Below are positions 5,179 through 62,618 of a stretch of DNA of 64,000 bases, piece by piece; the stretch's first letter is position 1, and each line of letters opens with the position of its first letter. Source of the stretch: Rhodoferax sp. (GTDB taxonomy: Bacteria; Pseudomonadota; Gammaproteobacteria; Burkholderiales; Burkholderiaceae_C); the NCBI GenBank assembly GCA_031291305.1, contig JARLJH010000032.1, positions 42,292 to 106,291 on the forward strand, in the 5' to 3' direction. Both the position numbers and the translations under genes were made by a program. The notes below the pieces were generated by a model. That model made no database searches and had not been told where the DNA came from. It saw only the letters and a program-made list of their open reading frames with translations.

Positions 5179-6306
5179 ATGACCCCGATTGAAAGTGCCA
5201 CTGACTGGTTGAGACACGCGATGACTCTGGCTTGCCAGGCGATCTACCTCACCAATCCAAATCCACGAGTAGGCTGCGTCATCACCACCGCAGGCGGTAA
5301 TGTCGTCGGCCAGGGCCACACCCAACGCGCCGGAGGCCCGCACGCCGAAATCATGGCGCTGCGAGATGCCCAGGAAAAAGGCCATGCGGTCCAAGGTGCC
5401 ACCGCCTACGTCACCCTGGAGCCATGCGCACACCATGGCCGCACCGGCCCGTGTTGCGATGCGCTTATTGCCGCTGGCATCAAAAAGGTTGTCGCCACCA
5501 ACACCGACCCCAATCCTCTGGTAGCAGGCCAGGGCTTTGCGCGTATGCGGGCGGCAGGCATTGAGGTGTATGTGTTGCCGTCCGACGACCCGCTGGCCAT
5601 CCAGTCCCGCGAGCTCAACATCGGCTTTTTTAGCCGCATGGTCCGAAAAAGGCCCTGGGTGCGCATGAAGATCGCCGCTTCGCTGGACGGCAAAACGGCG
5701 CTGCCCAATGGCGTCAGCCAATGGATCACTTCACCCGAAGCGCGCGCGGACGGTCACGCCTGGCGCGCCCGCGCCTGCTCGGTGCTCACCGGCATGGGCA
5801 CGGTGCTCGCCGACAACCCGAGGTTGGACGTGCGGCTAGTGGAAACGCCGCGCCAGCCGTCTGTGGCCGTGGTTGACAGCCGTCTGGAGTTGCCGCTGAA
5901 TGCTAGCCTCTTCGTAGCTGGTCGCCCTTTATATATCTGGGCTACAGGCCAAAATGATCAACAACAATCAGCGCTTGAGGTAAAAGGTGCCAAAGTGTTC
6001 TACCGGTCAGACGCAGACGGCAAGGTGGATTTGGCGGCCATGCTGCAAGACATGGGCAAACTGGAGATCAATGAACTGCATGTGGAGGCGGGCCACCGGC
6101 TCAACGGCGCCATGATTCACGCGGGACTGGTGGACGAGTTTTTAATTTATCTGGCACCCAAGCTGCTGGGTCAAGGGCGCGACATGGCCAGTTTTGGGCC
6201 ATTGACTGAGCTGTCGCAAGCCGTACCGCTGGCATTTCAGTCCACGCAGATGATCGGCCCAGACCTGCGCGTGCTGGCCAGAGTACAGGGAAGCGACCAG
6301 TTTTAG
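5179..6306 (+). CDS. ribD: Bifunctional diaminohydroxyphosphoribosylaminopyrimidine deaminase / 5-amino-6-(5-phosphoribosylamino)uracil reductase
   Basis: RibD carries out the second and third steps of riboflavin synthesis. The N-terminal deaminase domain has the zinc site His55-Ala-Glu57 (GGPHAEIMAL) and Cys83/Cys92 (EPCAHHGRTGPCC). The reductase domain starts near residue 150 (RPWVRMKIAASLDGKTAL, then TGMGTVLADNPRL). Length 375 aa is normal. The ATG at 5179 follows an in-frame TTG; ATG is preferred. Residues about 245-261 are encoded by a copy of the interspersed AT-rich repeat (nt 5911-5960), in frame in a loop of the reductase domain, so this loop is probably not ancestral. It is the first gene of the rib operon. 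Confidence 0.95.
   Translation: MTPIESATDWLRHAMTLACQAIYLTNPNPRVGCVITTAGGNVVGQGHTQRAGGPHAEIMALRDAQEKGHAVQGATAYVTLEPCAHHGRTGPCCDALIAAGIKKVVATNTDPNPLVAGQGFARMRAAGIEVYVLPSDDPLAIQSRELNIGFFSRMVRKRPWVRMKIAASLDGKTALPNGVSQWITSPEARADGHAWRARACSVLTGMGTVLADNPRLDVRLVETPRQPSVAVVDSRLELPLNASLFVAGRPLYIWATGQNDQQQSALEVKGAKVFYRSDADGKVDLAAMLQDMGKLEINELHVEAGHRLNGAMIHAGLVDEFLIYLAPKLLGQGRDMASFGPLTELSQAVPLAFQSTQMIGPDLRVLARVQGSDQF
5911..5960 (+). repeat. Interspersed ~50-bp repeat, copy inside ribD
   Basis: Forward-orientation copy: GTAGCT, then CCCTTTATATAT, then GGGCTACAGGCCAAAAT. It matches the copies at 13083 and 31444 at the GTAGCT, CCCTTTAT, GGGCTA and GGCCA positions. It is read through in frame by ribD and is more AT-rich than the surrounding coding sequence. 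Confidence 0.75.
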
Positions 6307-6364
6307 TCAGGGTTTGAAGGCATGGTGCGCGGGCTTCGGCTCGTTTCCCTGCGAAAATACGGCG

Positions 6365-6997: not shown

Positions 6998-7048
6998 CTT
7001 TTCGTGTCGCGCGGCACGCCTACTTATTCCGAAAATTCACACCTCTAT

Positions 7049-8164: not shown

Positions 8165-8188
8165 CCCTAAAACACAAAGGCAAATACC

Positions 8189-9195: not shown

Positions 9196-9218
9196 ATCTG
9201 AATGCGCCCTTGAACTTG

Positions 9219-11538: not shown

Positions 11539-11553
11539 CCAGGAGCTTGCGAC

Positions 11554-11973
11554 ATGCCAGCTACAGTGAGCCGAGGTCGTGGGCGCCGTGCCATCAACGA
11601 CATCAACATGGTGCCCTTCATTGATGTGATGCTGGTGCTGCTGATCATCTTCATGGTGACTGCGCCGCTGATTGCGCCCAGCATGATCAACCTGCCCAGC
11701 GTTGGCAAGGCGACCAAACAGCCTGATCAGGTGTTGCAGATCATCATTGGCAAAGATGAGTCGCTGGAGCTCAAAGCCAAAGACAAAACCAGCTCGGTCA
11801 CGCTCAAGGAAGTGGCGCAAGTGGTCAAACAGGCGCAGGAAGGTGTCATCAACTCTGCGGTGGTCATCAGTGCCGACAAAGACGTCAAGTACGAAGCAGT
11901 GGTGAAAGTCATGGACAAGCTGCAGCGCGAGGGCGTGGCACGCGTTGGGCTGTCGGTAAAACTTGCCAATTGA
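11554..11973 (+). CDS. tolR: Tol-Pal system protein TolR
   Basis: ExbD/TolR family, 139 aa. A short cytoplasmic N-terminus (RGRRAINDINMVPFIDVMLVLLIIFMVTAP) leads into the single membrane helix; the Asp in FIDVMLVLLIIF is the proton-pathway residue. The periplasmic domain ends with VVKVMDKLQREGVARVGLSV. It lies 15 bp after tolQ with an AGGAG ribosome-binding site, and the tolA frame begins at or just after its stop. Confidence 0.96.
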   Translation: MPATVSRGRGRRAINDINMVPFIDVMLVLLIIFMVTAPLIAPSMINLPSVGKATKQPDQVLQIIIGKDESLELKAKDKTSSVTLKEVAQVVKQAQEGVINSAVVISADKDVKYEAVVKVMDKLQREGVARVGLSVKLAN

Positions 11974-11983
11974 TCAACGGGCC

Positions 11984-12970
11984 ATGCACGCTAGCACTGA
12001 CAGACTTGACTTTGCCCCACCGGACACACCCGGGCGACTGCGCGCACTGATTCTGGCGCTGTTGGTTCATGGTTTGCTGTTGGCGGCCCTCGCATGGGGC
12101 GTGCGCTGGAACCGTGACACCCAGGTGTTGAGCGCCGATGCCGAACTCTGGTCCGCCGTGCCGCAGGAAGCGGCACCCAAACTGGCTGAGCCGCCGCCTG
12201 AGCCCGTAGAGCCCACACCACCACCCCAACCCCAGCCCCCAGCTCCGCCACCACAACCTGTGGCCGCACCGCCTGCGCCACCGCCCCCCCAAGTCGATAT
12301 CGCCCTCGAGCAAGAAAAGCTTCGCAAGCAGAAAGAGCTGGCCCGGCTGGAAGCATTGAAACAGGAAAAGCTCCAGCAAAAACTGGAGAAAGACCGTCTG
12401 GAAAAAGCCAAACTGGAAAAGGCGCGGCTTGAAGCGTTGAAACTCGAAAAGCTGCAGCAAGACAAACTGAAGCAGGAAAAACTCAAACAGGAAAAGCTGC
12501 AACAAGACAAGTTGAAGCAGGAGAAGCTGCTGGCAGAGCAGGCCAAACAAGCACAACAAGCGGCCCTGGACAAGAAAATAGCCGCGCAGGAAGCCAAGCA
12601 GCTCGAGGCTCAGCGACAGAAAGTTATGCAACGCATGATGGGAATGGCAGGTGCCAGCGGCACAGCCAATGCCACAGGCACCGCGTTGAAGTCCTCCGGA
12701 CCATCGGCCAGCTACGGCGGGCGCATCCGCGCCAAGATCAAGCCCAACATTGTTTTCACCGAAACGATCCAGGGCAACCCGACGGCCATCGTCGAGGTAC
12801 ACACCTCACCCGACGGCACCATCATCAGCAGAAAACTGACCCAGTCCAGCGGCGTGCCGTCATGGGATGAAGCGGTGATCCGCGCCATCGACAAGACTCA
12901 GGTGCTGCCACGCGACATCGACGGCAGCGTGCCTTCACTTCTCAGCCTGGAATTTCGCCCCAAGGACTAA
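11984..12970 (+). CDS. tolA: Tol-Pal system protein TolA / TonB C-terminal domain protein
   Basis: TolA (328 aa) spans the periplasm and links TolQR to Pal. Domain I is a membrane anchor (ALILALLVHGLLLAALAWGV, residues about 20-40). A Pro-rich segment (PPPEPVEPTPPPQPQPP) follows, then a long Lys/Glu/Gln-rich helical domain II (about residues 107-215) with quasi-repeats of the type KLQQDKLKQEKL. The C-terminal TonB/TolA domain III has VEVHTSPDGTIISRKL and GVPSWDEAVIRAI. ATG 11984 is preferred; a TTG at 11963 would overlap tolR by 11 bp. A C7 run lies in the Pro-rich coding part. tolB and pal do not follow in this window, unlike the usual tolQRAB-pal order. Confidence 0.92.
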   Translation: MHASTDRLDFAPPDTPGRLRALILALLVHGLLLAALAWGVRWNRDTQVLSADAELWSAVPQEAAPKLAEPPPEPVEPTPPPQPQPPAPPPQPVAAPPAPPPPQVDIALEQEKLRKQKELARLEALKQEKLQQKLEKDRLEKAKLEKARLEALKLEKLQQDKLKQEKLKQEKLQQDKLKQEKLLAEQAKQAQQAALDKKIAAQEAKQLEAQRQKVMQRMMGMAGASGTANATGTALKSSGPSASYGGRIRAKIKPNIVFTETIQGNPTAIVEVHTSPDGTIISRKLTQSSGVPSWDEAVIRAIDKTQVLPRDIDGSVPSLLSLEFRPKD

Positions 12971-12975
12971 TTCCA

Positions 12976-13064
12976 TTTCCAAATCATCCGTGTCGTTGTT
13001 GCTTCGCCTTGTCGTGCGTCAGCACTGCCTGCGGTATCAAGCCTAGACACAAATGATTTGGAAA
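12976..13064. terminator. Long inverted repeat between tolA and dnaE (possible bidirectional terminator or structured element)
   Basis: Arms at 12976-12994 and 13046-13064 are complementary over 19 bases with two mismatches (TTTCCAAATCAT..GTGTC on one side, its complement on the other), separated by 51 bases. It lies between convergent genes, where a bidirectional terminator is expected. The wide loop and the absence of a clean U-tract are unusual for a simple rho-independent terminator. Confidence 0.45.
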
Positions 13065-13082
13065 CAGAATAAGCTACAGGAT

Positions 13083-13130
13083 AAGTAGCTATCAACCCTT
13101 TATATACAAGGGCTAGAGGCCAGTTTTATT
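13083..13130 (+). repeat. Interspersed ~50-bp repeat at the 3' end of dnaE
   Basis: The cleanest copy in the window: AAGTAGCTATCAA, then CCCTTTATATACAAGGG (complementary ends CCCTT/AAGGG), then CTAGAGGCCAGTTTTATT. Its AT-rich right end contains the dnaE stop codon (TAA on the minus strand at 13126-13128). Confidence 0.8.
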
Positions 13131-16100
13131 CATAAACGATTTCAGCAATACCGGGGGCTGCCTGGGCCCACCAACTGGCCAGGGCCGCGTTGCTGGGATA
13201 AAACTTGGCACGTTCGCCAAGCTGCAGCTCGACACTGGCAGCACCTTCATCGCCACGGCACGTCAAGGCCATGCGTACCTGCAAACCACGCCACAGATCA
13301 CCCTGCTCGGTGACTTCCTTTTGTGCCGGGAAGTCCCTGATCAGGCGCGCAACGTCCAGTGACCGCCCCTGCGACTGATTGGCCAGCCGGACACGCAAAT
13401 ATTTGCCAAAGCGGCAGCGCGCCTGCTCCAGGTCCCAAACCTGTGTCACCGTGAGCTGCATGCCACCGGAAAAACGATCCGGCTGCTGCTTGCCCATGAC
13501 GATGACCAGTTCATCGTCTTTCAGCAGATTCTTGTGGGCGTTGATCAAGGCTTCGTCGGCGCGCGCCTCGATCACGCCGGACTTGTCATCCAGCTTGAAC
13601 AGCGCCAGCTTGCCGCGCTGCCCGTTGATCACCCTGAAATCAGTGACGATACCGGCCAGCAGCTGCGGCTCACGCGTGTCAATCAAATCGGTTATCGGAC
13701 GCTTAGCGAAGCGGCGTACCTCGTCCACCACCTCGTCAAACAGATGGCCCGACAGATAAAACCCGACCGCGGTTTTCTCATAGACCAGCCGCTCTTTCAC
13801 GCCCCAGGGCGTAGCCTGCACCAGCTCAGGTTCCTGCGTGCTGGAGCCCAGTTCATCACCACCCCCCATGTCGAACAAGCTGCACTGGTTGGCATTGGCA
13901 AGTATGGCGGCACCAAATTCAAACGCCAGGTCCACACTGGCCAACAGGCTGGCACGGTTGAGGTCAATGGCGTCAAACGCGCCGGCCTTGATCAGCGCCT
14001 CGACCGTGCGCTTGTTGATGCGGCTGCGGTCCACCCGAGCGCAAAAGTCGAACAGGCTCTTGAACGGACCTTTCACATCGCCCATCGGCCCCACGCCCCG
14101 GCCTTCGCGCGCGGCGACGATGGCTTCGATGGCCTGTGCGCCACTGCCCTTGACGGCACTGAGGCCGTAGCGGATGACCTTGTCGGACACCGGCTCGAAA
14201 CGGCTTTTGCCGCGGTTCACATCCGGCGGCTCAAAACTCAGGCCCATTTTGATGGCATCTTCCAGCAAGACCTTGAGTTTGTCGGTGTCGTCCATTTCCA
14301 CCGTCATGTTGGCGCAGAAGAACTCAGCGGCGTAATGCACCTTGAGCCAGCCGGTGTGGTAAGCCAGCAGCGAGTAGGCGGCGGCGTGCGACTTGTTGAA
14401 GCCGTAGCCGGCAAACTTTTCCATCAAGTCAAAAACCTCGTCGGCCTTGCTCTCTGAAATATCGTTTTTGGCAGCACCATCACGGAAAATCTGCCGGTGT
14501 TTGGCCATTTCTGCCGCGTCTTTTTTACCCATGGCGCGGCGCAACATATCGGCACCACCGAGCGAGTAACCGCCCAGAATCTGCGCGGTCTGCATCACCT
14601 GTTCCTGGTAAACCATGATGCCGTAGGTCTCAGACAACATGTTGGCCACCAGCGGGTGCGGGTACTCCACCACCTCGCGGCCATGTTTACGCGCCACAAA
14701 GCTCGGGATCAGGTCCATCGGGCCGGGTCGGTACAAAGCGTTCAGCGCAATCAGGTCTTCCAGCCGCGTGGGCTTGGCATCGCGCAACATGCCTTGCATG
14801 CCGCGACTTTCAAACTGGAACACGGCCTCTGTCTTGCCTTCCTGAAAAAGCCGGTACGTGGCCTTATCGTCCAGCGGCAGGTTCTCAAACGCAAAGTTCT
14901 CCTGACCGGGGTGGCGCTTGAAGATGAACTCGCGCGCAATTTCCAGAATCGTCAGCGTGGCCAGGCCCAAGAAGTCGAACTTGACCAGGCCAACGGCTTC
15001 CACGTCACTCTTGTCGTACTGGCTGACCGCCGACTCGCTGCCGGGCTGCTGGTAGAGCGGGCAAAAGTCGGTGAGCTTGCCCGGCGCAATCAACACGCCC
15101 CCGGCGTGCATGCCGATGTTGCGCGTCATGCCCTCCAACTTGCGAGCCAGCTCCAGCAGAGTGCGCACGTCTTCTTCTTTGGCTTCGCGCTCGGCCAGAA
15201 TGGGTTCCGCCTCGGTGGCATAGACCATCTTGTCGTCTTTGGACTTGTCGGGTGGCGGCAGTTGCAGCGTCACCGCGACGCCTGGCTTGTTGGGGATGAG
15301 CTTGCTGATGCCGTCGCAAAAGGTGTAGCTCATATCCAGCACGCGGCCCACGTCGCGAATGGCGGCACGCGCGGCCATGGTGCCGAAGGTGGCAATCTGG
15401 CTCACAGCGTCCTTGCCGTACTTCTCTTTCACATAGTCAATCACCCGGTCGCGGTTGCCCTGGCAAAAGTCAATGTCAAAGTCGGGCATGGAAACCCGCT
15501 CGGGGTTCAAAAATCGCTCAAACAGCAGGTTGTATTGCAGCGGGTCCAGGTCGGTGATCTTCAGCGCATAAGCCACCAGTGAACCGGCCCCGGAACCCCG
15601 CCCCGGCCCGACCGGGCAGCCGTTGTTCTTGGCCCAGTTGATGAAGTCGCCCACGATCAAAAAGTAACCAGGAAAACCCATCTTCAGAATGGTGGTGAGC
15701 TCAAACTCCAGCCGCTCCACATAGCGCGGCATCTCGGCCTCACGTTTGGCGGGGTCTGGGTACAGGTGCGCCATGCGCTCCTTGAGGCCTTCGTGCGAGG
15801 CGTAACGAAAGTATTCGTTGGCCTCCATCACCACGCCGTTGACGGGTGGAATCGGAAAGTCCGGCAGCTGCGGCTTGCCCAGCACCAGACTCAGGCTGCA
15901 GCGTTTGGCAATCTCCACACTGTTGGCCAGGGCGCTGGGCACATCGGCAAACAATTCCGCCATTTGTGCCGTGGTCTTGAAATGCTGCTCGCGAGTAAAG
16001 CGGCGCACCCGACGCGGGTTAGCCAGAATCTCGCCCTCGGCAATGCAGACGCGCGCCTCATGGGCCTCAAAGTCTTCGGGCGCCGCAAACTGGATCGGAT

Positions 16101-16698
16101 GCGTGGCCACCACAGGCAGTTGCAGGCGCTGCGCCAATTGCACGGCGGCGGCCACCTGCGGCTCGTCTTCCGGCCGACCCGCACGCTGCAACTCCAGATA
16201 AAAACGATGCGGAAAAATCTGTGCCAGCTGCATGGCGGCATCCAACGCCCTGGATTCGTCGCCCTGCATCAAAGCCTGCCCAACCGGCCCAGCTTGTGCA
16301 CCTGACAAACAGATCAGGTCGCCGTTGAGTTCGGTCAGCCATGCCATGCTTACACTGGCTTGCGGTTTGCCAGCGTTTTGTGTCCAGGCACGTGCCAAAA
16401 GCTCCGACAGATTCAGGTAACCACGATGGCTTTGCACCAAAAGCAACACCCGCGACAGTTGCGTAGCATCCTTGCCCACACCTTCAAGCCATATTTCAGC
16501 GCCAATGATGGGTTTGACACCGCGCTTGCGCCCTTCTTTGTAAAATTTGATCGCGCCAAACAGGTTGGACAAGTCGGTGATTGCCAATGCAGGCTGGCCG
16601 TTGGAGGCCGCAGACTTGACAATTTCGTCAATTCTGTTGGTGCCATCGATGACGGAGAATTCGGTGTGTAGGCGCAGGTGAACAAACATAGCCTGCAT
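13126..16698 (-). CDS. dnaE: DNA polymerase III alpha subunit
   Basis: Replicative polymerase, 1190 aa. Domains in order: PHP domain (FVHLRLHTEFSVIDG; residues about 5-280), polymerase core with the catalytic PDFDIDF aspartates near residues 403-409 and GPGRGSGAGSLVAYAL, a fingers/helix-hairpin-helix region (GGADMLRRAMGKK, FNKSHAAAYSLLAYHT), a clamp-binding QCSLFD motif near residue 937, an OB fold (LLAGIVTDFRV) and a C-terminal tau-binding region. The start may be at 16698 or 16689 (MFVHLRL). The stop is in the repeat at 13083-13130, so the last codon or two may be repeat-derived. It is divergent from the response regulator gene with a 26-bp gap. Confidence 0.97.
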   Translation of the reverse strand: MQAMFVHLRLHTEFSVIDGTNRIDEIVKSAASNGQPALAITDLSNLFGAIKFYKEGRKRGVKPIIGAEIWLEGVGKDATQLSRVLLLVQSHRGYLNLSELLARAWTQNAGKPQASVSMAWLTELNGDLICLSGAQAGPVGQALMQGDESRALDAAMQLAQIFPHRFYLELQRAGRPEDEPQVAAAVQLAQRLQLPVVATHPIQFAAPEDFEAHEARVCIAEGEILANPRRVRRFTREQHFKTTAQMAELFADVPSALANSVEIAKRCSLSLVLGKPQLPDFPIPPVNGVVMEANEYFRYASHEGLKERMAHLYPDPAKREAEMPRYVERLEFELTTILKMGFPGYFLIVGDFINWAKNNGCPVGPGRGSGAGSLVAYALKITDLDPLQYNLLFERFLNPERVSMPDFDIDFCQGNRDRVIDYVKEKYGKDAVSQIATFGTMAARAAIRDVGRVLDMSYTFCDGISKLIPNKPGVAVTLQLPPPDKSKDDKMVYATEAEPILAEREAKEEDVRTLLELARKLEGMTRNIGMHAGGVLIAPGKLTDFCPLYQQPGSESAVSQYDKSDVEAVGLVKFDFLGLATLTILEIAREFIFKRHPGQENFAFENLPLDDKATYRLFQEGKTEAVFQFESRGMQGMLRDAKPTRLEDLIALNALYRPGPMDLIPSFVARKHGREVVEYPHPLVANMLSETYGIMVYQEQVMQTAQILGGYSLGGADMLRRAMGKKDAAEMAKHRQIFRDGAAKNDISESKADEVFDLMEKFAGYGFNKSHAAAYSLLAYHTGWLKVHYAAEFFCANMTVEMDDTDKLKVLLEDAIKMGLSFEPPDVNRGKSRFEPVSDKVIRYGLSAVKGSGAQAIEAIVAAREGRGVGPMGDVKGPFKSLFDFCARVDRSRINKRTVEALIKAGAFDAIDLNRASLLASVDLAFEFGAAILANANQCSLFDMGGGDELGSSTQEPELVQATPWGVKERLVYEKTAVGFYLSGHLFDEVVDEVRRFAKRPITDLIDTREPQLLAGIVTDFRVINGQRGKLALFKLDDKSGVIEARADEALINAHKNLLKDDELVIVMGKQQPDRFSGGMQLTVTQVWDLEQARCRFGKYLRVRLANQSQGRSLDVARLIRDFPAQKEVTEQGDLWRGLQVRMALTCRGDEGAASVELQLGERAKFYPSNAALASWWAQAAPGIAEIVYE

Positions 16699-22291: not shown

Positions 22292-22360
22292 CCTCAACAA
22301 ACTGACCCGCACCAGCCAATGCGCAATTTGCATATTGGTCTGCTTTAAATGCTACCTAAT

Positions 22361-22406
22361 AGATAGCTTCATATTCTTTATCTACGCGGGCTAATGCCAC
22401 AAAATG
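22361..22406 (+). repeat. Degenerate interspersed repeat between the flavodoxin and TonB receptor genes
   Basis: GATAGCT, then TTCTTTATCTACGCGGGCTAATGCCACAAAAT, aligning with the family at GATAGCT, TTTAT, GGGCTA, GCC and AAAA. It is weaker than the copies at 13083 and 48111. The rest of the 22292-22476 gap shows nothing else recognisable. Confidence 0.5.
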
Positions 22407-22476
22407 CCTATACTCCAAACCAAACTGGGCCCTGAACCAGGCAGCAGACCATTGCCGAGAGCCAGCGAAGAAATGG

Positions 22477-24941: not shown

Positions 24942-26000
24942 ATGAACAAATCCCCCCGCACACGCCAAAACATCGCCATCATTGGCGCAGGCATGGCGGG
25001 TGTCACCTGCGCGCGCACCCTGATGCAAGCGGGCCACACCATCACCTTGTTCGAGAAAAGCGCTGATCTGGGCGGGCGCATGGCTACCCGCGACAGCGCC
25101 TTCGGATCGTTCGACCACGGCACTCAGTACTTCACAGCACGCGACCCGCGCTTTGTCATGGCGCTGGAAACCTCACCCACGCTGGTCAAACGCTGGAGTG
25201 CCAACGCCGTGCAGGTGATTGACGAAGCCGGCCTGGTCAGCACGCCACCCGGCGCGCCTGTCAGCGAGGCACATTGGGTCGGTGTGCCAGACATGAGGTC
25301 GTTGGTGGCTGGCTGGGCGCAAGACCTGAAAGCTCCGAGCCAGATCGAACTGCAAACCCGCGTGACCCTGATTGAGCCCGATGCACTCAAACCTGGTCAC
25401 TGGCAACTGCGTACAGAAGGCCCCGACGATGCACGTCATGTATTCTCTGGTTTCAATGCTGTTTTGATCGCTATCCCCAGTGGTCAAGCGCAGAGTTTGC
25501 TACAAAATTCAAAGTTGGCGGAGCCTTGGATTACCTCTCTGGACGCAGTGCAGACCGCGCCGTGCTGGACGTTGATGCTGGCCTTTCCCCAAGCCATGCA
25601 ACCCGATTTGTCCATTCTGGGCCCGCAGTGGAGCGCCGCACGCAGCAAGCATCACCGCATTGCCTGGCTGGCGCGTGAATCCAGCAAGCCTGGTCGCAGC
25701 CCGATTGAGCGCTGGACGGTGCAGGCCAGTGCCGAGTGGTCACAGGAACACCTGCAGGATGACCCCGCACGGGTTGAAGCCAAACTTCTCAAGGCGTTTG
25801 CTGAGGTGACCGGCATCCACGCCGAACCATCGCATGTGGACAGCCACCGCTGGCTGTACGCCAAGACCTTCAAGCCGCTGGGCCAAAGTTATCTGTTCAA
25901 CGTCGATCAGGGACTGGGGCTGTGCGGCGACTGGTGTCTGGGCTACCGGGTGGAAGACGCCTATATCTCGGGGCTGGATCTGGCGCTGGCGGTGCTGTAA
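24942..26000 (+). CDS. FAD-dependent oxidoreductase (renalase/amine oxidase-like)
   Basis: 352 aa. The N-terminal Rossmann dinucleotide fold is IAIIGAGMAGVTCARTLMQAGH, followed by FEKSADLGGRMATR (FAD-binding GGRxxT) and FDHGTQYFTARDPRF, typical of bacterial renalase-like proteins; the C-terminal GLCGDWCLGYRVEDAYISGLDLA closes the FAD site. The substrate is unknown. Codons at nt 25461-25514 look like a worn reverse-orientation copy of the interspersed repeat (GATCGCTATCCCCAG ... GCTACAAAATT), in frame within a loop. It probably has its own promoter, since the 81-bp gap to the LysR gene holds a poorly conserved leader with a GGAG site. Confidence 0.85.
   Translation: MNKSPRTRQNIAIIGAGMAGVTCARTLMQAGHTITLFEKSADLGGRMATRDSAFGSFDHGTQYFTARDPRFVMALETSPTLVKRWSANAVQVIDEAGLVSTPPGAPVSEAHWVGVPDMRSLVAGWAQDLKAPSQIELQTRVTLIEPDALKPGHWQLRTEGPDDARHVFSGFNAVLIAIPSGQAQSLLQNSKLAEPWITSLDAVQTAPCWTLMLAFPQAMQPDLSILGPQWSAARSKHHRIAWLARESSKPGRSPIERWTVQASAEWSQEHLQDDPARVEAKLLKAFAEVTGIHAEPSHVDSHRWLYAKTFKPLGQSYLFNVDQGLGLCGDWCLGYRVEDAYISGLDLALAVL
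25461..25514 (-). repeat. Degenerate interspersed repeat inside the FAD oxidoreductase gene
   Basis: Reverse-orientation match to the family at TTTTGATCGCTATCCCC and TTTGCTACAAAATTCAAAG, compared with GACCTCTAGCCC and TAGCTACAAAAAAGATAG in the copy at 42531. The centre is not conserved. Support is moderate to low. Confidence 0.4.
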
Positions 26001-26376: not shown

Positions 26377-27390
26377 ATGAGTCTGTACATCGGCCGCTTC
26401 GCCCCATCACCCACCGGGCCGCTGCACGCGGGCTCGCTGGTGGCGGCGCTGGCCAGCTGGCTCGACGCCCGCGCCCACGACGGCACCTGGCTGGTGCGCA
26501 TGGAAGACGTGGACACCACCCGCTGCCTGCCCGGCATGGATCAGATCATCCTGCAGCAACTCAGCCAATGCGGCCTGCACAGCGACCAGCCACCGCTGTA
26601 CCAGTCACAGCGCAACGACGCTTACCAACAGGCGCTGGACACCCTGGTGCTACGCCAGCTGGCATACCCATGTGGCTGCACCCGCAAACAGATTGAAGCC
26701 GCACTGGTGCAACAAGGCGCAGGCAAGGCGCGACACGGCGAGCTGATTTACCCTGGAACCTGCCGCAACGGGCTGCATGGTGCTGCGGCACGGGCGTGGC
26801 GTCTACACACCGATGTCCATATAAAAATTAGTCCTTTAGCCCTTATAAATAAAGGGTATACAGCTACGGATTCAATAGTTTTTCCTACATCAAATAGCAG
26901 CGACGTAGCTCCCTTGACCAGCCCGACTGTCTGGTGTGACCGCCGCCTGGGCCCGCAGCAGCAAGACGTGGCCGCAGAGGTGGGCGACTTTGTGCTCAAA
27001 CGCGCCGACGGCTGCTTTGCCTACCAGTTGGCCGTGGTGGTGGACGACGCTGCACAGGGCATCACCGACGTGGTGCGTGGCGAAGACCTGGCGGACAACA
27101 CGGCACGGCAAATCCTGCTGCAACGCGCGCTGGGACTGCCTACACCGCGTTACCTGCACACGCCGCTGGTGCTGGGTGACAACGGTGAAAAACTTTCCAA
27201 ACAAAACGGCGCCCAGGCGATCAACACCAATGCACCCCTTGCCACGCTAAATGCCGCGGCACAGGCGCTCGGTTTGAACGCATGCACCGGCACAGTACCG
27301 CAAGCCCTGCTGGCCTGGACCACCCAATGGAAAACCCTGTGGCTAGACACGGCGCTGGCGCCTTCTCAAAACTCTGGTCACCCCCCATAA
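26377..27390 (+). CDS. gluQ: Glutamyl-Q tRNA(Asp) synthetase
   Basis: 337 aa GluRS catalytic-core paralogue that attaches glutamate to queuosine at tRNA-Asp position 34. Seen are [15 protein letters not shown] (HIGH-like loop), the Asp/Glu-rich RMEDVDTTR, the zinc site CGCTRKQI ... [23 protein letters not shown] and [10 protein letters not shown] (KMSKS-like). It lacks the anticodon-binding domain of GltX, as expected. Residues about 149-168 are encoded by a reverse copy of the interspersed repeat (nt 26821-26879), inserted in frame in the loop before [19 protein letters not shown]. No dksA gene is adjacent, although that is a frequent neighbour. Confidence 0.93.
26821..26879 (-). repeat. Interspersed repeat, in-frame copy inside gluQ
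   Basis: Minus-strand reading: CCGTAGCTGTATACCCTTTATTTATAAGGGCTAAAGGACTAATTTTTAT in pieces; CCCTTTAT/ATAAGGG is a near-perfect inverted repeat. It is strongly AT-rich against its G+C-rich surroundings and adds about 20 residues that most GluQ proteins lack. Confidence 0.8.
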
Positions 27391-31287: not shown

Positions 31288-32043
31288 ATGACCCAAGAAA
31301 CCCTCCAAGCCAACGAACCCGTTGAACGGCGCGCCATCCGCAGTTTTGTCAAGCGCACTGGCCGCACGACGGCCGGGCAGACCAAGGCTCTGAGCGAGCT
31401 GGGCCCCAAGTTCATCCTCCCGTATCAGGAAGGAACTCTTGATTTTGTAGCTACTTATGCAGATAGGACGGGGGCTACAGGCCAAAACAATCTACAAAGT
31501 AAACCCCTGGTGCTGGAGATCGGTTTTGGCATGGGCGAGGCGACCGCCCAGATTGCCGCACTGCTGCCTGACACCAACTTCCTGTGCTGCGAGGTGCATG
31601 ACCCCGGCGTGGGTGCGCTGCTCAAACGCATTGGTGAGCAGGACCTGCGCAACATCCGCATCTGCGCGCATGACGCTGTGGAAGTCATTGACCACATGCT
31701 GCCCCTGCAATGCCTGGACGGCGTGCACATCTTCTTCCCCGACCCGTGGCACAAGGCGCGCCACAACAAGCGCCGCCTCATCCAAGCGCCGCTGGTGGCC
31801 AAACTGGCAGCACGCCTGAAAGTGGGCGGTTACATCCACTGCGCTACCGACTGGCAGGCCTATGCCGAACAGATTCTGGAAGTATTGAGCGCCGAGCCAT
31901 TGCTAAAGAACACCGCTCTGCTCTCGAACCCGGAACTACACGGCTACGCCCCCAAGCCGCATTACCGACCGCTGACCAAGTTTGAAAACCGTGGCCTCAA
32001 ACTCGGCCACGGCGTCTGGGACGTGGTGTTTGAGCGGGTATAA
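31288..32043 (+). CDS. trmB: tRNA (guanine-N7-)-methyltransferase
   Basis: 251 aa SAM-dependent enzyme that makes m7G46 in tRNA. Seen are the N-terminal [15 protein letters not shown], the SAM loop [28 protein letters not shown] (signature), [12 protein letters not shown] and the C-terminal [24 protein letters not shown]. Residues about 53-69, between the N-terminal segment and the SAM loop, are encoded by a copy of the interspersed repeat (nt 31444-31493) and lengthen a surface linker. The downstream pseudouridine synthase begins just after the stop. Confidence 0.96.
31444..31493 (+). repeat. Interspersed repeat, in-frame copy inside trmB
   Basis: TTTGTAGCTACTTATGC, then a diverged centre, then GGGGCTACAGGCCAAAACAATCT. 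The two ends match the copy in ribD almost base for base (GGGCTACAGGCCAAAA). The centre has lost the ATAAGGG complement. Confidence 0.75.
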
Positions 32044-39774: not shown

Positions 39775-43405
<3,631 letters not shown>

Positions 43406-48062: not shown

Positions 48063-48110
48063 TTTTTTACACTTTTAAAAACATCCAACGAAAGACAATC
48101 GCTATTATAT

Positions 48111-48158
48111 AAGTAGCTTCTTACCTATGTAAGATAAGGGCTGGAGGCCATTTTTACT
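48111..48158 (+). repeat. Interspersed repeat between the DHH and ferredoxin genes
   Basis: AAGTAGCTTCTTACC, then TATGTAAGATAAGGGCTGGAGGCCATTTTTACT. It matches the copy at 13083 at both ends (AAGTAGCT, AAGGGCT-GAGGCCA). It lies in the shared upstream region of divergent genes, so it may affect either promoter. Confidence 0.8.
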
Positions 48159-48176
48159 CACAATACAATCAAATAC

Positions 48177-49431: not shown

Positions 49432-51372
49432 TTAGATATCCAGAGTAGGCCGCAAGGCCGAAGGTTCAACAAAACGCCAGCGCCCGACAAAGCACGCCGA
49501 CAGCGCCGCCAAAGCGCCAGCAACGGCGATCCATTGAAGCGGATGCTGCCAGTTGCCGTCAAACGCGCCGAACAAGCTGGCTTTGAGGGCCTTGACGACC
49601 CAGGTGATCGGCAAGTAGGGGCTGATCTGGGCAAACAGGCCACCGCTAAGTTCCACGGGCAAGACGCCACCGGAGGCTGACAACTGCACCGCCAACAACA
49701 CCAGTGCCAGCGCTTTGCCGCCATCTCCCAGCGCACGTATGAAGGCAAAGACGATCAGCAGGAAGGTCAGCGATGTCACCCCCAAAATCACACCCAGAGC
49801 CATCGCATCGTGCGCCTTGATAGTCAATATCCATAGCATTGCTAGTAATATCAGAAAGGCCTGCGGCAAGACAATCATTGCCGGAACCAGTATTTTCCCG
49901 AGCAAACGCGCAGGCGGTGACAGCTGTGCAGCAAACAGTGGTAAGCCACGCAAATGGATCATGAACACCGCCAGACTGGCGCCCAGCCACAAGGCACCAG
50001 GAACAATGTTGGGGGCAAAGCCGCTACCGTTGTTTTCAACCTCCGCAGCAATCTCAACCTCCGGCTGCACCGAATTGGCAAGCCCCTGCGCATTGCCATC
50101 CATGGTTTTGACCGCTGCAGGCAGCGACGATTCCAGAAAATCCAGCGCGCCTGACAGGTTCTGTGCGGCCTGCGCCAGCTTATGCGCACCAGTCTTGAGC
50201 GCCACGGAACCATCCCGCAAACTGGTGCTGCCACGCGACAGGTCATCAAGCTGACTGTCTTCGGGCAACTGTGTGACCATGCTGCGCAAGCCGCCGTTCA
50301 AGCTACGCATCCCGTTGGTCAGCGCCCCGACGCCGGTGTTGAGCTGCGTGGCACCGTCGCGCAACTTTTGCTGCCCGGCGATGGCAGCGTCCAGGCCGGA
50401 CGCCAGACCATTGACACCTTCTCCAAGTTGGTCCAGCCCCTCCTTGACCCGGGTGGCGACAAAGACGCTGTCGTTCGCCTCGTTGCGAAAAGCCTGAATG
50501 CCGACCTGCAAACGCTGGGCTCCTTGTTGCAGTTGCAGCAGGCCCTGGCTGAGCTCGGCGTGGCCGTCCACCAAGGCGTGACCACCGTCCTCCAGACGAC
50601 GCAGCTCGGAATTGTGCGCACGCTGGGCAAACATGCTGCGCAACCCAGCCCCTAGTTCCCGCGCGCCGCGCGTCAACTGATTGACGCCTTGATCGAGCCG
50701 ACTGGCACCACCGGACAAACCATCCGCACCATGGGACACCTGTTGCGCGCCAACTGCCAGTTCCTGGGCGCCCAAACGCAGCTGCTGCACCGCTTGATGC
50801 AGCGACTCCAGGCTGCGCTGCGATCCGGCAGCATTGTTAAGCACCAGCGCCCAGCGCTGTTCGTTCAAGCTCTGATTGACCTCGCGACCCAGGTCTTCGG
50901 CGAACCGCCTGGCCAGGGCCGCGCCGGGGTAACTATTGCCCTCGGAAGCAAATACCACCAGTTTTCCGGCGCCCGCTTTGGCGCCAGGAATGGCATTGGA
51001 GCTGAAATCCGCAGGTACCACCAGCGCAAAAGCCAGCGTACCCTGACGCACCATGCGCCGGGCTTCCTGCTCGGTGGCCACATCGATGTAACCAAACTTG
51101 GGCCTGACCCGCAGACGCGCCACGACGTCGCGCCCCACATTGAAGGCCTGATCGCGGTACTCCAGACCACGGTCCAGATTGACAACCCCAACGGCCAGCG
51201 CCACGGTTCTGGCGGCTGGGTCCCAGACACTGGACAGGTAAATGATCACGTACAGGGCCGGAATCAGCACCACCACCACGGCGGCCAGCAACAGCCGGGG
51301 ATAGCGCAGGAAGAAGCCCGCATCTACGCAGGCGATGCTCAAAAACGAAGGTTGTGCAACAGCTTTAGCCAT
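49432..51372 (-). CDS. YhgE/Pip-type membrane protein (ABC-2 permease fold)
   Basis: 646 aa. The N-terminal membrane helix (LLLAAVVVVLIPALYVIIYLSSVWDP) is followed by the YhgE/Pip N-terminal domain (AVGVVNLDRGLEY, FALVVPADFSSN, VVFASEGNSYPGAALARRF). A long helical region (about residues 200-420) is rich in heptad-like repeats (GAQQVSHGADGLSGGASRL, DGATQLNTGVGALTNGM). Five to six C-terminal helices resemble ABC-2 permeases. Gram-positive relatives are phage receptors or secretion proteins; the function here is unknown. The ATG at 51372 overlaps arfB by 8 bp; the open frame extends further but through arfB. Confidence 0.85.
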   Translation of the reverse strand: MAKAVAQPSFLSIACVDAGFFLRYPRLLLAAVVVVLIPALYVIIYLSSVWDPAARTVALAVGVVNLDRGLEYRDQAFNVGRDVVARLRVRPKFGYIDVATEQEARRMVRQGTLAFALVVPADFSSNAIPGAKAGAGKLVVFASEGNSYPGAALARRFAEDLGREVNQSLNEQRWALVLNNAAGSQRSLESLHQAVQQLRLGAQELAVGAQQVSHGADGLSGGASRLDQGVNQLTRGARELGAGLRSMFAQRAHNSELRRLEDGGHALVDGHAELSQGLLQLQQGAQRLQVGIQAFRNEANDSVFVATRVKEGLDQLGEGVNGLASGLDAAIAGQQKLRDGATQLNTGVGALTNGMRSLNGGLRSMVTQLPEDSQLDDLSRGSTSLRDGSVALKTGAHKLAQAAQNLSGALDFLESSLPAAVKTMDGNAQGLANSVQPEVEIAAEVENNGSGFAPNIVPGALWLGASLAVFMIHLRGLPLFAAQLSPPARLLGKILVPAMIVLPQAFLILLAMLWILTIKAHDAMALGVILGVTSLTFLLIVFAFIRALGDGGKALALVLLAVQLSASGGVLPVELSGGLFAQISPYLPITWVVKALKASLFGAFDGNWQHPLQWIAVAGALAALSACFVGRWRFVEPSALRPTLDI

Positions 51373-51772
51373 CTTGCTGCACTTTGATGCGCTGGGCTTT
51401 GAGGCCTGAGCGCCGCGCCTTGTCCTCACGCAAACGCCTGCGCGACGCTTTGGTCGGCTGGGTGGCCTTGCGTGCTTTGGGCGGATGCGCCACGCTGTTG
51501 ACCAGCTCATTGAGGCGCACCATGGCGTCAAACTTGTTGGACTCCTGCGTGCGGTGCTGCTGCGCCTTGATGACCAGCACGCCGTCTTGCGTGATGCGGC
51601 TGTCACGCAGGGCCAGCAGGCGCGCTTTCACACCGTCTGGCAGGCTGCTGGCAGCAATGTCAAAGCGCAAATGGATGGCGCTGGAGACCTTGTTGACGTT
51701 TTGCCCCCCCGCGCCCTGGGCACGGATAGCACTCAGGGCGATCTCTTCGGTGGGGATTCTCAAAGCTTCCAT
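51365..51772 (-). CDS. arfB: Peptidyl-tRNA hydrolase ArfB (ribosome rescue factor)
   Basis: 135 aa. The catalytic GGQ loop is IRAQGAGGQNVNKVSSAIHL, and the C-terminal basic tail (KARKATQPTKASRRRLREDKARRSGLKAQ) is the ArfB/YaeJ tail that enters the empty mRNA channel of stalled ribosomes. Length and tail separate it from RF1/RF2. It is first in the arfB-pip-ylqF operon. A degenerate interspersed repeat (51773-51820) abuts the start codon and supplies the leader, including an AAGGTG stretch that may serve as the ribosome-binding site. Confidence 0.93.
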   Translation of the reverse strand: MEALRIPTEEIALSAIRAQGAGGQNVNKVSSAIHLRFDIAASSLPDGVKARLLALRDSRITQDGVLVIKAQQHRTQESNKFDAMVRLNELVNSVAHPPKARKATQPTKASRRRLREDKARRSGLKAQRIKVQQDG

Positions 51773-51820
51773 TTCAATAGCACCTTACGATTTGTTTATA
51801 TGGGCTGGATGACAAAATCA
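51773..51820 (+). repeat. Degenerate interspersed repeat just upstream of arfB
   Basis: CAATAGCACCTTACG, then TTTATATGGGCTGGATGACAAAATC. It matches the family at ATAGC, TTTATAT, GGGCTGGA and AAAAT. It joins the reverse transcriptase remnant directly, as if inserted in or beside it. Confidence 0.5.
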
Positions 51821-51959
51821 GGGCCAGACCGATCTCTTCTACCCATACTTTGACGTCTTCCAGTGCCACTTGCGCTTGTGCCGCACTTTGACACAGGATG
51901 ACGAAGTCGTCAGCGTAGCGCACCCTACGCAAGCCCAACTCTGACTTATCGTCCAGGGC
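51819..51959 (-). pseudogene. Fragment of a group II intron reverse transcriptase/maturase
   Basis: Minus-strand translation gives about 47 residues, LGLRRVRYADDFVILCQS followed by AAQAQVALEDVKVWVEEIGLAL, which is the catalytic YADD block of bacterial group II intron-encoded reverse transcriptases plus the following helix. Sequence on either side does not continue the protein: one flank is the interspersed repeat and arfB, the other is the end of ybaK. No intron RNA domains were recognised nearby. This is a relic of an intron insertion. Confidence 0.8.
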
Positions 51960-55607: not shown

Positions 55608-55760
55608 TCCTATGCCCTCTATTTCATATCCGAGGGAGGAATTATGCCGCTGGGCACGCTGCCGACACGGAATCGGCTCACCCGAGGTCAGATCGAGCCC
55701 GCTTTTCTTCTCGTAAACGCACACCCTGGCGCTGATGATGGACTCCCGAGTCCGTCTCAA

Positions 55761-55808
55761 AATAAGAGCATATTTCCCTTACTGCATAGGGGCTACAGCC
55801 TCTTTTCC
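55761..55808 (+). repeat. Degenerate interspersed repeat upstream of the alpha/beta hydrolase gene
   Basis: AAGAGCATATTTCCCTTACTGCATAGGGGCTACAGCCTCTTTTCC; CCCTTA and TAGGGG pair across a short centre and GGGCTACAG-CC matches the ribD and trmB copies. The rest of the 279-bp divergent gap 55608-55886 shows no gene. Confidence 0.55.
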
Positions 55809-55886
55809 CTAAAATTAGAACCAATTCTGGCTGCACAAGAAGCCGGTCAGCACGCGGTACAGAATTAGTTTCTTATGATCTGACGC

Positions 55887-56804: not shown

Positions 56805-56855
56805 GAAAATCCCATCTTTGCCGAACCAACGATTCAAAAGAACAGGAAACCCCTC

Positions 56856-57960: not shown

Positions 57961-57989
57961 AGACGCGCCTGCCCCGAAGGAGTCCAACC

Positions 57990-59818: not shown

Positions 59819-59928
59819 CATTACAAACACGGATCTTCGACATGGATCGCACCATGATCGATGCGGCCAGCCATGGCCTTGAACTCATGGAATTTATTTT
59901 TTTTGGAGACATGACATGTTGCAACTGA
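59815..59928 (+). pseudogene. 37-codon ORF, possible HAD-hydrolase N-terminal remnant
   Basis: The ORF starts on the last bases of the DUF4276 gene (ATGA) and runs into pepN in another frame. Its RIFDMDRTMID resembles HAD motif I (FDMDGTMID), with Gly changed to Arg, and nothing downstream continues the fold. It could be a remnant of a HAD gene cut by insertion of the ATPase pair, or chance. No function is expected. Confidence 0.3.
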
Positions 59929-62618
59929 ATGAATCATCAGGGACGGCCACGATAGTTCGCCGCTCTGACTACACGCCCCCCGCGTTCTGGATTGATACCG
60001 TAGCCCTGACCTTTGACCTGGACCCGGCTAAAACCCGCGTGCTCAACAAAATGTCCCTGCGCCGCAACCCGGACGTACCGGCGCAGGCGCTCAAACTTGA
60101 CGGCGACGAGCTCAACCTGGCCCGTGTGCTGGTCAACGGTGCAGGCTGCTCGTTCAAGATGGATGGCAGCCAGCTGGTGTTGGAGAACCTGCCCGCCGAG
60201 GGCAGCTTTGAGCTGGAAATCTTCACCACCTGCGCGCCCGCCAAGAACACCAAGCTCATGGGCCTGTATGTCAGCAATGACTCGTTCTTCACCCAGTGCG
60301 AGGCCGAGGGCTTCCGGCGCATCACCTATTTCATGGACCGTCCGGATGTCATGGCCAGCTACACCGTCACGCTGCGCGCCGACAAGGCTAGATACCCGGT
60401 GCTGCTCTCCAACGGCAATCTGGTGGAACAGGGCACCCTGGAAGATGGCCGTCACTTTGCCACCTGGGTCGATCCGCACAAAAAACCCAGCTACTTGTTC
60501 GCCCTGGTGGCCGGCAAACTGGTGGCGCGCGAGCAACGCATCACCGCACGCAACGGCAAAGACCACCTGTTGCAAATCTACGTGCGCCCCGGCGACATGG
60601 ACAAGACCGAACACGCCATGAACTCGCTGATCAATTCGGTGATCTGGGACGAAGCCCGCTTTGGCCTGCCGCTGGATCTGGAGCGCTTCATGATCGTCGC
60701 CACCAGCGACTTCAACATGGGCGCCATGGAAAACAAGGGCCTGAACGTCTTCAACACAAAATACGTGCTGGCCAACCAAGCCACCGCCACCGACGTTGAC
60801 TTTGCCAACATTGAGAGTGTGGTCGGTCACGAATACTTCCATAACTGGACCGGCAACCGCGTCACCTGCCGCGACTGGTTCCAGCTGAGCCTGAAAGAAG
60901 GCCTGACGGTGTTTCGCGACCAGGAATTCAGCATGGACCTGTGCGCCGATGCATCGGCACGCGCCGTCAAACGCATTGAAGACGTGCGCGTGCTGCGCAC
61001 CGCCCAGTTCCCCGAAGACTCCGGCCCCATGGCCCACCCGGTGCGGCCCGACAGCTACATCGAGATCAACAACTTCTACACCGTCACCATCTACGAAAAA
61101 GGTGCCGAGGTCGTGCGCATGATGCAAACGCTGGTGGGCCGTAGCGGCTTTGCCAAAGGCATGACACTGTACTTTGCCCGCCATGACGGCTGCGCCGTGA
61201 CCTGCGACGACTTTGCCCAAGCCATTGCGGATGCCAACCCGGATTCCGCTTTGTCCAAGCTGCTGCCACAATTCAAACGCTGGTACAGCCAGGCCGGAAC
61301 GCCGCGCCTGCAGGCTCGCGGCGAATTCAACGCCGACGCGCACACCTACACGCTGACCTTCACGCAGAGCTGCCCCGCCACACCGGGCCAGAACAGCAAG
61401 GAACCGTTTGTCATCCCGATCAGCCTGGGTCTGGTGGGTGCCAGCGGCGCCGCCCTGCCCCTGCACATCCAGAACGATCTGGCCAGCGTGGGCGACAGCC
61501 ACCTGTTTGTCATGACGCAGGCCACCGAGTCGATCACCTTCGAGAACGTTGCTGAGGAGCCCGTACCGTCGGTGCTACGCGGTTTCAGCGCGCCGGTGAT
61601 TCTGGATCTGGACTACACCGATGAACAGCTGCTGACCCTGCTGGCACACGACCCAGACCCGTTCAACCGCTGGGAAGCCGGGCAGCGCCTGGCCTTACGG
61701 AGTGCTATTCAGTCAATAGCTAGTAGCCCAGATGAAATAAGGGCTAGCAGCCTAAATGACTCATATGTTTCAGCCATGCGCCTGGTACTGCGCCACCCCA
61801 CGCTGGATGCAGCCTTCAAGGAACTGGTGCTGACCCTGCCGTCTGAGGCCTACCTGTCCGAACAGCTCGACGTGGTCGACCCGCAGCGCGTGCACGCCAC
61901 GCGTGAAGCCATGCGTGAGCAACTGGCCCGCGAACTGGCTGACGACTGGCAGTGGGCGTTTGCGGAGCACAGCGCCAACGGCAGCTACCGCCCTGACACC
62001 CTGTCCAGCGGTCGCCGTGCGCTGGCTGGTCTGGCCCTGAACTATCTGTGCCTGGCTGCTCGCAACTCGGGTGACACGGTCTGGCCCGGCAAAGCCTACC
62101 AGAGCTTCAAGGATGCCGACAACATGACCGACCGCTTCAACGCGCTGGCCGCCTTGGTGCATAGCGGACATGAACTTGCCAAGCCCGCGCTGGCGCGCTT
62201 TCACAGCTTGTTCAAGGCCGAGGAACTGGTGCTGGACAAATGGTTTGCCCTGCAAGCCGGTTGCAGCGACCGTGGCGGCCAAGTGCTGCCCGCAGTGCGC
62301 GCCCTCATGAAACACCCCGACTTCAACCTGAAGAATCCGAATCGCGCCCGCAGCGTGATCTTCAGCTATTGCAGTGCCAACCCCGGCGCGTTTCACCGCA
62401 CAGATGCGGCTGGCTACCTATTCTGGAGCGAGCAGGTTCTGGCACTGGACACCATCAACCCGCAAGTTGCAGCCCGTCTGGCGCGAGCGCTGGACCGCTG
62501 GAAAAAACTGGCCGAGCCGTACAAAAATGCCGCCCATGAAGCCATCAAACGCGTCGCCGCCAAGGCAGACCTGAGCAACGACGTGCGCGAGGTAGTCACC
62601 CGCGCGCTGGCCGACTGA
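59916..62618 (+). CDS. pepN: Aminopeptidase N (M1 family)
   Basis: 900 aa zinc aminopeptidase. The substrate-binding GAMENKGLN lies near residue 268 and the zinc site HEYFHNWTGNRVTCRDWFQLSLKEGLT near 305 (HExxH-x18-E). The C-terminal helical domain follows (AGQRLAL, VLRHPTLDAAFKELVLTLPSE, NPNRARSVIFSYCSANPGAFH). Residues about 600-615 are encoded by a copy of the interspersed repeat (61713-61760) in a variable loop between helical segments. The start has a GGAG site; an ATG at 59911 is out of frame. It acts in cytosolic peptide turnover. Confidence 0.97.
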   Translation: MLQLNESSGTATIVRRSDYTPPAFWIDTVALTFDLDPAKTRVLNKMSLRRNPDVPAQALKLDGDELNLARVLVNGAGCSFKMDGSQLVLENLPAEGSFELEIFTTCAPAKNTKLMGLYVSNDSFFTQCEAEGFRRITYFMDRPDVMASYTVTLRADKARYPVLLSNGNLVEQGTLEDGRHFATWVDPHKKPSYLFALVAGKLVAREQRITARNGKDHLLQIYVRPGDMDKTEHAMNSLINSVIWDEARFGLPLDLERFMIVATSDFNMGAMENKGLNVFNTKYVLANQATATDVDFANIESVVGHEYFHNWTGNRVTCRDWFQLSLKEGLTVFRDQEFSMDLCADASARAVKRIEDVRVLRTAQFPEDSGPMAHPVRPDSYIEINNFYTVTIYEKGAEVVRMMQTLVGRSGFAKGMTLYFARHDGCAVTCDDFAQAIADANPDSALSKLLPQFKRWYSQAGTPRLQARGEFNADAHTYTLTFTQSCPATPGQNSKEPFVIPISLGLVGASGAALPLHIQNDLASVGDSHLFVMTQATESITFENVAEEPVPSVLRGFSAPVILDLDYTDEQLLTLLAHDPDPFNRWEAGQRLALRSAIQSIASSPDEIRASSLNDSYVSAMRLVLRHPTLDAAFKELVLTLPSEAYLSEQLDVVDPQRVHATREAMREQLARELADDWQWAFAEHSANGSYRPDTLSSGRRALAGLALNYLCLAARNSGDTVWPGKAYQSFKDADNMTDRFNALAALVHSGHELAKPALARFHSLFKAEELVLDKWFALQAGCSDRGGQVLPAVRALMKHPDFNLKNPNRARSVIFSYCSANPGAFHRTDAAGYLFWSEQVLALDTINPQVAARLARALDRWKKLAEPYKNAAHEAIKRVAAKADLSNDVREVVTRALAD
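61713..61760 (+). repeat. Interspersed repeat, in-frame copy inside pepN
   Basis: TCAATAGCTAGTAGCCC, then AGATGAAATAAGGGCTAGCAGCCTAAATGAC. GGGCTAGCAGCC matches GGGCTAGAGGCC of the family, and TAGCTAGTAGCCC pairs partly with it. It is AT-rich against its surroundings and encodes a Ser-rich loop. Confidence 0.72.

Follow-up and report, generated by a model that had tools for sequence, protein, structure and literature searches.

Known DNA uptake signals measure up to about 30 bp, with their AT-tracts included. Species with strong uptake preferences are known from two families, the Pasteurellaceae and the Neisseriaceae (PMC7811141). The cores of the known signals measure 9–12 bp (PMC7811141, PMC3630211), and the uptake signal sequences (USS) of Pasteurellaceae evolve by point mutation, not by insertion (PMC7811141); these papers, like the two others cited below, are drawn on in excerpt. 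Here we describe a motif of about 70 bp that lies in a 64,000-nucleotide stretch of Rhodoferax sp. DNA (contig JARLJH010000032.1, positions 42,292 to 106,291, forward strand; the window) and recurs across the genome, also inside housekeeping genes. In our judgement it is very probably a maintained motif of duplex DNA. That it is the natural-transformation uptake signal of the Comamonadaceae is a possibility which our analysis leaves evenly balanced. If so, it would be a third signal, of different build and found in many genera, and would provide an independent test of the origin and spread of uptake signals.

Structure and distribution of the motif

A first-pass annotation of the window had described seven strong and four weaker copies of a repeat of about 50 bp. 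An nhmmer model was built from the seven strong copies themselves, with 30 dinucleotide shuffles of the window as the null. Each of the seven scored 39–49 bits with this model of their own, the shuffle maximum was 8.7 bits, and these copies are real. A refined model was trained on 464 kb of the Rhodoferax genome, namely the window and 400 kb picked by position and not by matches. In these 464 kb it detects 68 copies that score 13 bits or more; the model of the preceding iteration reached no more than 7.1 bits on the reversed sequence. Three of the weaker copies (at 22361, 51773 and 55761) were recovered by the refined model, and the fourth, at 25461, matched neither model.

The conserved span is longer than first described, at about 70 bp, and runs from about 41 bases to the left to 28 bases to the right of the start of GGGCTAGAGGCC. 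It contains a smaller dyad, GCTAY-N7-RTAGC, and a larger overlapping one with arms of about 13 bp and a 7-bp spacer (...GCSCTT-N7-AAGSGC...). A- or T-tracts flank both dyads. The length is fixed: over the aligned part, 207 of 212 copies are free of any net indel. Copies occur in both orientations and are AT-rich, as the annotation had stated (39% G+C in copies of at least 24 bits from the window's own genome, against 58.5% for the window). The same copies share 54% identity on average and 74% at most. Four other genera, sampled at 100 kb each, gave means of 52–54% and a maximum of 75% outside one tandem array. This array, in genome G033 (L184:18045-18613), consists of three near-identical copies at intervals of about 165 bp and, next to them, a fourth that is less similar; it reaches 97% identity and holds the only recent duplicates seen in the four genera.

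The motif is over-represented chromosome-wide. A search of the own genome gave at least 150 matches, one for each candidate scored out of 1478 first-look candidates, all with E ≤ 7.2e-6. At a threshold of at least 12 bits, sampled pieces of carrier genomes hold 8–31 copies per 100 kb and a reversed control of 1.53 Mb holds none, which is the excess that the proposed repeat family called for; some pieces of G002, G004, G005 and G010 entered this density sample because orthologues had been fetched there. The own genome, at 15.9 copies per 100 kb, extrapolates to roughly 800 copies.

Among 150 sampled genomes of Comamonadaceae, 55 have at least one match, in 47 of 126 genera. Counts were at least 33 in 32 genomes, 11–32 in eight and 1–6 in 15. 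Within the window's genus, presence is all-or-none. Seven genomes are carriers (the own genome and G002, G004, G005, G008, G010 and G011, the latter six with at least 140 matches each), and six are near-empty (G001, G003, G006, G007, G009 and G012, with 0–5 each). In the tree, G003 groups with two carriers, G008 and G010 (support 86; G008 with G010 64). No clear relics of the motif were seen in G003 despite this place, and loss and never having had the motif would both fit. The exact core pattern occurs in at least 120 stretches of named genomes. The 80 core matches listed include Acidovorax, Rhodoferax, Giesbergeria, Comamonas, Simplicispira, Ottowia, Diaphorobacter, Extensimonas and Paenacidovorax; the rest are records named at family level or higher, one of them a metagenome-assembled genome labelled Gammaproteobacteria.

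IMG/VR contained no exact match of a strict 37-base pattern, and one copy used as a BLAST query matched none of 50,697 phages; the low identity among copies, about 54%, makes both searches insensitive, and neither had a positive control. One copy as query matched 6 of 72,556 plasmid records in a likewise insensitive search. Three 50-kb stretches of Comamonadaceae plasmids, taken without regard to the motif status of the host chromosomes and scanned with the hidden Markov model, held 0, 0 and 2 copies; the third had been chosen for its match. One 54-bp motif-like stretch, 81.5% identical to one copy, lies in the E. coli plasmid NZ_KJ541071.1 (15625-15678; L379:1501-1554), upstream of blaOXA-2 and among resistance genes (aadB, aadA5 and qacEdelta1 nearby), in a frame annotated as DUF1010. 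This is a hint that the cassette may derive from a Comamonadaceae genome.

Origin of the motif within genes

Orthologues were collected by single-gene searches, aligned by codon and scored by a position matrix (genome background about -75, standard deviation 16); window-wide, the relatives' fetched stretches yielded only pepN and weak gltX-type matches. In five genes, ribD, pepN, an rlmI-like gene, folC and aroE, the segment that carries the motif is kept at near-equal length in motif-free congeners. Carriers score 13 to 68 there, against -70 to +4 for the motif-free congeners. Length differences in the latter are all 0 except in pepN of G003 (-6) and G009 (-3) and in aroE of G009 (-12), and the carriers differ in ribD of G005 (+18) and folC of G010 (+3). 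In G007, pepN is matched incompletely. The same segment at nearly the same length without the motif argues that, in these five genes, substitutions produced the motif where it now stands.

Orthologues from other families and solved structures are consistent with this. Relative segment lengths in other families are -6 to +39 bp in pepN, -9 to +18 bp in ribD, -3 to +6 bp in the rlmI-like gene, -12 to 0 bp in folC and -18 to 0 bp in aroE. Other-family segments that differ from the motif-bearing ones by no more than 3 bp have scores of -86 to -43; the scores of gapped ones are inflated, since a gap column contributes zero. NCBIfam models cover three of the proteins at full length without net insertion (rlmI-like gene, 384 residues on 386 positions; folC, 398 on 398; aroE, 273 on 274), and NCBIfam names all three, RlmI only below its cut-off. 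Against solved homologues, PepN has a one-residue gap in the segment and no insertion, and RibD aligns without extra residues. The first-pass annotation had named loops at the same places in distant families as the observation that would speak against inserted elements. This is what ribD and pepN present, where aligned orthologues from other families lack no more than 9 bp of the segment.

Recoding by the motif can preserve the protein, as in the rlmI-like gene and folC, whose segment is conserved. Between G010 and G003, these two genes each show 12 synonymous codon differences, against 5 and 7 non-synonymous ones, respectively; aroE has nearly as many of one kind as of the other (10 and 11). 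The divergence of the segment relative to its flanks, taken over non-independent pairs, is 1.78 among non-carriers and 1.31 among carriers. Carriers have the lower ratio in six of six genes, trmB with only three non-carrier pairs. Non-carriers change 1.78 times faster in the segment than in the flanks, and the segments are therefore permissive. Judged from these alignments, the motif is conserved between carrying species beyond the protein's requirement.

Other copies are true insertions. In gluQ, about 100 bp are extra in six carriers (the own genome, G002, G004, G005, G008 and G010) and absent from five non-carrier congeners and from the six other families aligned. At the N-terminus of a HAD-family hydrolase, the flanks are 71–107 bp apart in four carriers and 20 and 44 bp apart in two non-carriers, and on this alignment the copy there is a true insertion as well. 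The copy in proA is probably an insertion, with 30 residues between two aligned parts where the nearest solved homologue has 5. Relative to solved homologues, DapF has a net 11 and Cca about six extra residues; a copy in the sulfite/nitrite reductase of G010 falls outside the aligned part. trmB is mixed, with a loop over the right part of the motif that is 30–33 bp shorter in other families. In the linker of the FadH–crotonase fusion, a strong copy stands at the same place in G004, the sole relative compared. The annotation had counted at least four extra loops and suggested aligning ribD, gluQ, trmB and pepN with orthologues. Two of these four are in place, with only small length differences, one is mixed and one, gluQ, is inserted as proposed.

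These insertions bear on the explanation first offered, a small, formerly mobile element (a miniature inverted-repeat transposable element, a relative of Rickettsia palindromic elements (RPE), or repetitive extragenic palindromes (REP) mobilized by RAYT proteins) that was inserted long ago and is decaying. The high copy number, the tandem array in G033 and the occurrence in both orientations agree with it, as do gluQ, the HAD-family hydrolase and proA. The in-place origin in five genes does not. Near-identical recent copies were not found in the own genome, where no pair of copies of at least 24 bits exceeds the 74% given above, and elsewhere were confined to the G033 array. Copies differ pairwise by about 46% and yet hardly vary in net length, as would be expected of a site maintained by recognition more than of a decaying transposon. 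The palindromic switch between dialects (see below) would also be unexpected of transposed copies. We compared 39 carriers (seven of the genus and 32 others with 31–33 scored matches) with 26 non-carriers (six of the genus and 20 of the 95 genomes without a match); Y1 transposases occur in 35 of the 39 and in 21 of the 26, with no association, and mobilization of the REP/RAYT type was rejected on this count. An interspersed, genome-wide family that is present in relatives, partly read in frame and in some places inserted is what the annotation had described, and that part holds. The orthologue alignments of the in-place genes reject mobile insertion as the general mechanism. We retain it for gluQ, the HAD-family hydrolase and proA, where it could be a minor route of motif gain, and regard a mobile origin of the family as improbable. 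Interspersed repeats within genes, it appears, are not necessarily insertions.

Table 1. Copies of the motif in the window (frame coordinates and strand in brackets; bit scores from the refined model)
Feature	Position	Strand	Remarks
ribD (5176-6306 +)	5897..5967	+	in frame; arose in place, without extra residues relative to motif-free congeners
3' end of dnaE (13126-16698 -) and adjoining intergenic DNA	13068..13138	+	
between open reading frames, weaker copy	22346..22416	+	20.6 bits
gluQRS (26377-27390 +)	26814..26884	-	in frame, inside the true insertion of about 100 bp
trmB (31288-32043 +)	31430..31500	+	in frame; left half conserved sequence, right part longer loop
linker of FadH/OYE-crotonase fusion (40301-43405 +)	42521..42591	-	in frame; FadH/OYE-type oxidoreductase fused to a crotonase domain
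intergenic	48096..48166	+	
start of arfB (51365-51772 -), weaker copy	51760..51830	+	19.8 bits
between two open reading frames, weakest copy	55748..55818	+	15.9 bits
pepN (59916-62618 +)	61699..61769	+	in frame; arose in place, without extra residues

The window also contains a 15-nt tandem repeat (12334-12528) within an open reading frame at 11963-12970.

Probable recognition as duplex DNA and a possible role in DNA uptake

No bias in the orientation of the motif relative to genes was found among 169 copies outside clear reading frames. They lie with the neighboring genes in 43 cases, against them in 54, between convergent genes in 31 and between divergent genes in 19, with 22 undecided; random non-coding windows are alike (n = 165: 38 with, 43 against, 22 convergent, 19 divergent). 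The strand bias that the first-pass annotation had thought worth counting is thus absent. Of 41 clearly intragenic copies (23 sense, 18 antisense), 34 use the two frames left open by the consensus.

Further details come from 171 pooled copies. The tract to the right of the core is an A-run in 15 copies (1.0 expected) and a T-run in 36 (17.2 expected). Neighboring bases occur as discrete pairs (AA/CT/GG; TT/AG; TT/AA) with few intermediates, and the two arms permit complementary alternatives. None of the 22 strongest links joins the two arm positions. The motif has dialects, GCCC..GGGC in the own genome and G004 and GCGC..GCGC in G010, G033 and G134. The position that distinguishes them switches on both arms together (C..G in 68, G..C in 64 and G..G in 33 of the 171 copies). 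The lack of orientation bias, the interchangeable A- and T-tracts, the old and divergent copies and the palindromic dialects point to a protein that reads duplex DNA. We infer that this putative protein is a dimer and that the motif is read as duplex DNA, rather than as RNA or as a cruciform.

An element acting in transcripts, such as a hairpin, a terminator or an untranslated-region element, would agree with the two inverted repeats. Their pairing over 53 copies, 73.3% against 71.0% after shuffling, is reached by 4 of 500 shuffles, and the covariation score of the two dyads (0.147) exceeds all 500 shuffles (0.112), which keeps a folded form in play. Most of this covariation is due to the dialect pair, since the alignment combines copies of both dialects: 16 of the 30 double changes fall there. 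The folding check suggested by the annotation gave a mixed answer. Rfam has no match at the motif copies, its sole match in the window being a tRNA. The RNA hairpin was rejected mainly on the absent orientation bias and on the Rfam result, the pairing statistics being mixed, and we consider an RNA-level role very improbable.

The mechanism that we favor would run as follows. A dimeric protein would read the motif as double-stranded DNA; DNA bearing it would enter preferentially by way of type IV pili and then be recombined; and the motif would accumulate genome-wide by molecular drive, as do USS in Pasteurellaceae and DNA uptake sequences (DUS) in Neisseriaceae. Hundreds of scattered sites, evolution in place, dialects and AT-tracts together make up the set of properties of DNA uptake signals. 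The chromosome-wide over-representation, the lineage-specific dialects and the evolution in place by point mutation in five genes, with insertions occurring as well, each agree with what is expected of such a signal. As far as examined, the motif appears uptake-signal-like in all but its length. Acidovorax temperans, A. facilis and Verminephrobacter eiseniae are naturally transformable (PMC4212676). For V. eiseniae the excerpted text of that paper gives evidence for selective uptake and names no uptake sequence (PMC4212676), and an uptake role of the motif would explain this selective transformation. Exact core matches are present in the genomes of A. temperans, A. facilis and A. defluvii. ComEC was matched in 65 of 65 genomes of the comparison sets above, in 62 over the cut-off. 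Among the papers listed by our literature search, which left most subscription papers outside, none describes the motif or an uptake sequence in Comamonadaceae, as judged by title or the opening of the abstract.

Several observations weigh against an uptake signal that spread by point mutation and drive. Transformation of A. temperans failed with DNA from A. facilis, A. defluvii or A. delafieldii (PMC4212676); the species refuses DNA of sister species that carry the motif core, and the motif therefore cannot be the whole barrier. ComEC, which an uptake role requires, is as common in non-carriers and does not discriminate, and one carrier, G023, shows it only as two pieces below the cut-off. 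A span of 70 bp does not fit a signal with a core of 9–12 bp and up to about 30 bp in all. Real insertions, as in gluQ, the HAD-family hydrolase and proA, are not predicted by point-mutation drive alone. Motif scores in carriers, which run from 0 to above 70 (no non-carrier piece exceeds 0), form no smooth continuum and dip at 10–20.

The evidence for origin in place also has points on the other side. In five of seven other families the folC segment lacks 12 bp, and in five of seven the aroE segment lacks 9–18 bp. folC was noticed through flanks that match at equal distance in the motif-free G003 and G006, and the rlmI-like gene and aroE were picked among translated copies for their native-looking segments; since these three were chosen after they looked native, their number gives a biased picture of the share of in-place copies. 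Between the own genome and G003, non-synonymous differences prevail in pepN (6 synonymous, 14 non-synonymous) and ribD (5 and 14). The scores of non-carrier congeners exceed background, most clearly in the rlmI-like gene (-28 to +4) and in aroE (-40 to +4), which may reflect near-matches that favored gain, shared ancestry or relics of loss.

The evidence for a dimer bound to duplex DNA would fit equally a chromosomal protein that acts in nucleoid organization, replication or repair, with ordinary selection at hundreds of sites and no connection to uptake. All-or-none presence among congeners would then follow from the gain or loss of one protein. The distribution along the closed chromosome of G010 (76 matches listed of 150 scored, 30 on the plus and 46 on the minus strand) shows no strand switch and no empty region, and about 800 sites that alter residues of housekeeping enzymes would demand strong selection at each. 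To our knowledge, the known chromosomal site families (matS, SlmA, KOPS) are fewer, shorter, polar or regional, which also counts against this alternative. We regard it as the main alternative, though an unlikely one. Whatever the function, hundreds of long putative DNA-binding sites, which recast protein segments where they stand and are present in some congeners and absent in others, make the conflict between selection at the DNA and protein levels measurable.

Comparison with known systems

RPE are, like the motif, short palindromic repeats that are read in frame inside protein genes. They are insertions that add peptide, unlike the motif, which in five genes comes without an added segment of its length. 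REP/RAYT systems also combine small palindromes with many copies, and a Y1 transposase is present in most genomes tested; the differences are that this transposase is about as common without the motif and that the motif arose in place in several genes. Most of the 65 family genomes have, irrespective of the motif, one weak Y1_Tnp match in frames of about 230–300 aa, a protein that we take to resemble RAYT, without an evident REP partner. The motif-rich G033 has eighteen Y1 transposase matches, several with identical scores, in what looks like an active IS200/IS605-like family. BRE, the closest described betaproteobacterial repeats, known from Bordetella and other Betaproteobacteria, are likewise interspersed in Comamonadaceae, some wholly in coding sequences, but are about 90 bp long, have 69% G+C in Bordetella, are often in tandem and, under the criteria of that paper, number 1–29 copies per genome (PMC3110155). 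Judged by this description of length, composition and arrangement, they differ from the motif, for which one tandem array was seen.

DUS have about 10–12 bp, compared with 70 bp for the motif. They are read by ComP, where the reader of the motif would be a putative protein only. In common with the motif they have lineage dialects, a presence in coding DNA that is limited by stop codons and, in some species, dyad arrangements (PMC3630211). USS differ in having a 9-bp core with AT-tracts in place of about 70 bp with two dyads; the motif, known here from sequence alone, is less dense and includes insertions. Like the motif, USS occur in hundreds to thousands of scattered copies, also in coding DNA, evolve in place by point mutation, and form a rigid, shape-dependent motif with AT-tracts (PMC7811141). 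The Comamonadaceae would then possess a third system for recognizing self-DNA, with a bipartite, dialect-bearing signal of 70 bp, a dimeric receptor and a drive to hundreds of sites that rewrites housekeeping proteins, a tentative proposal to which we give somewhat less than even weight.

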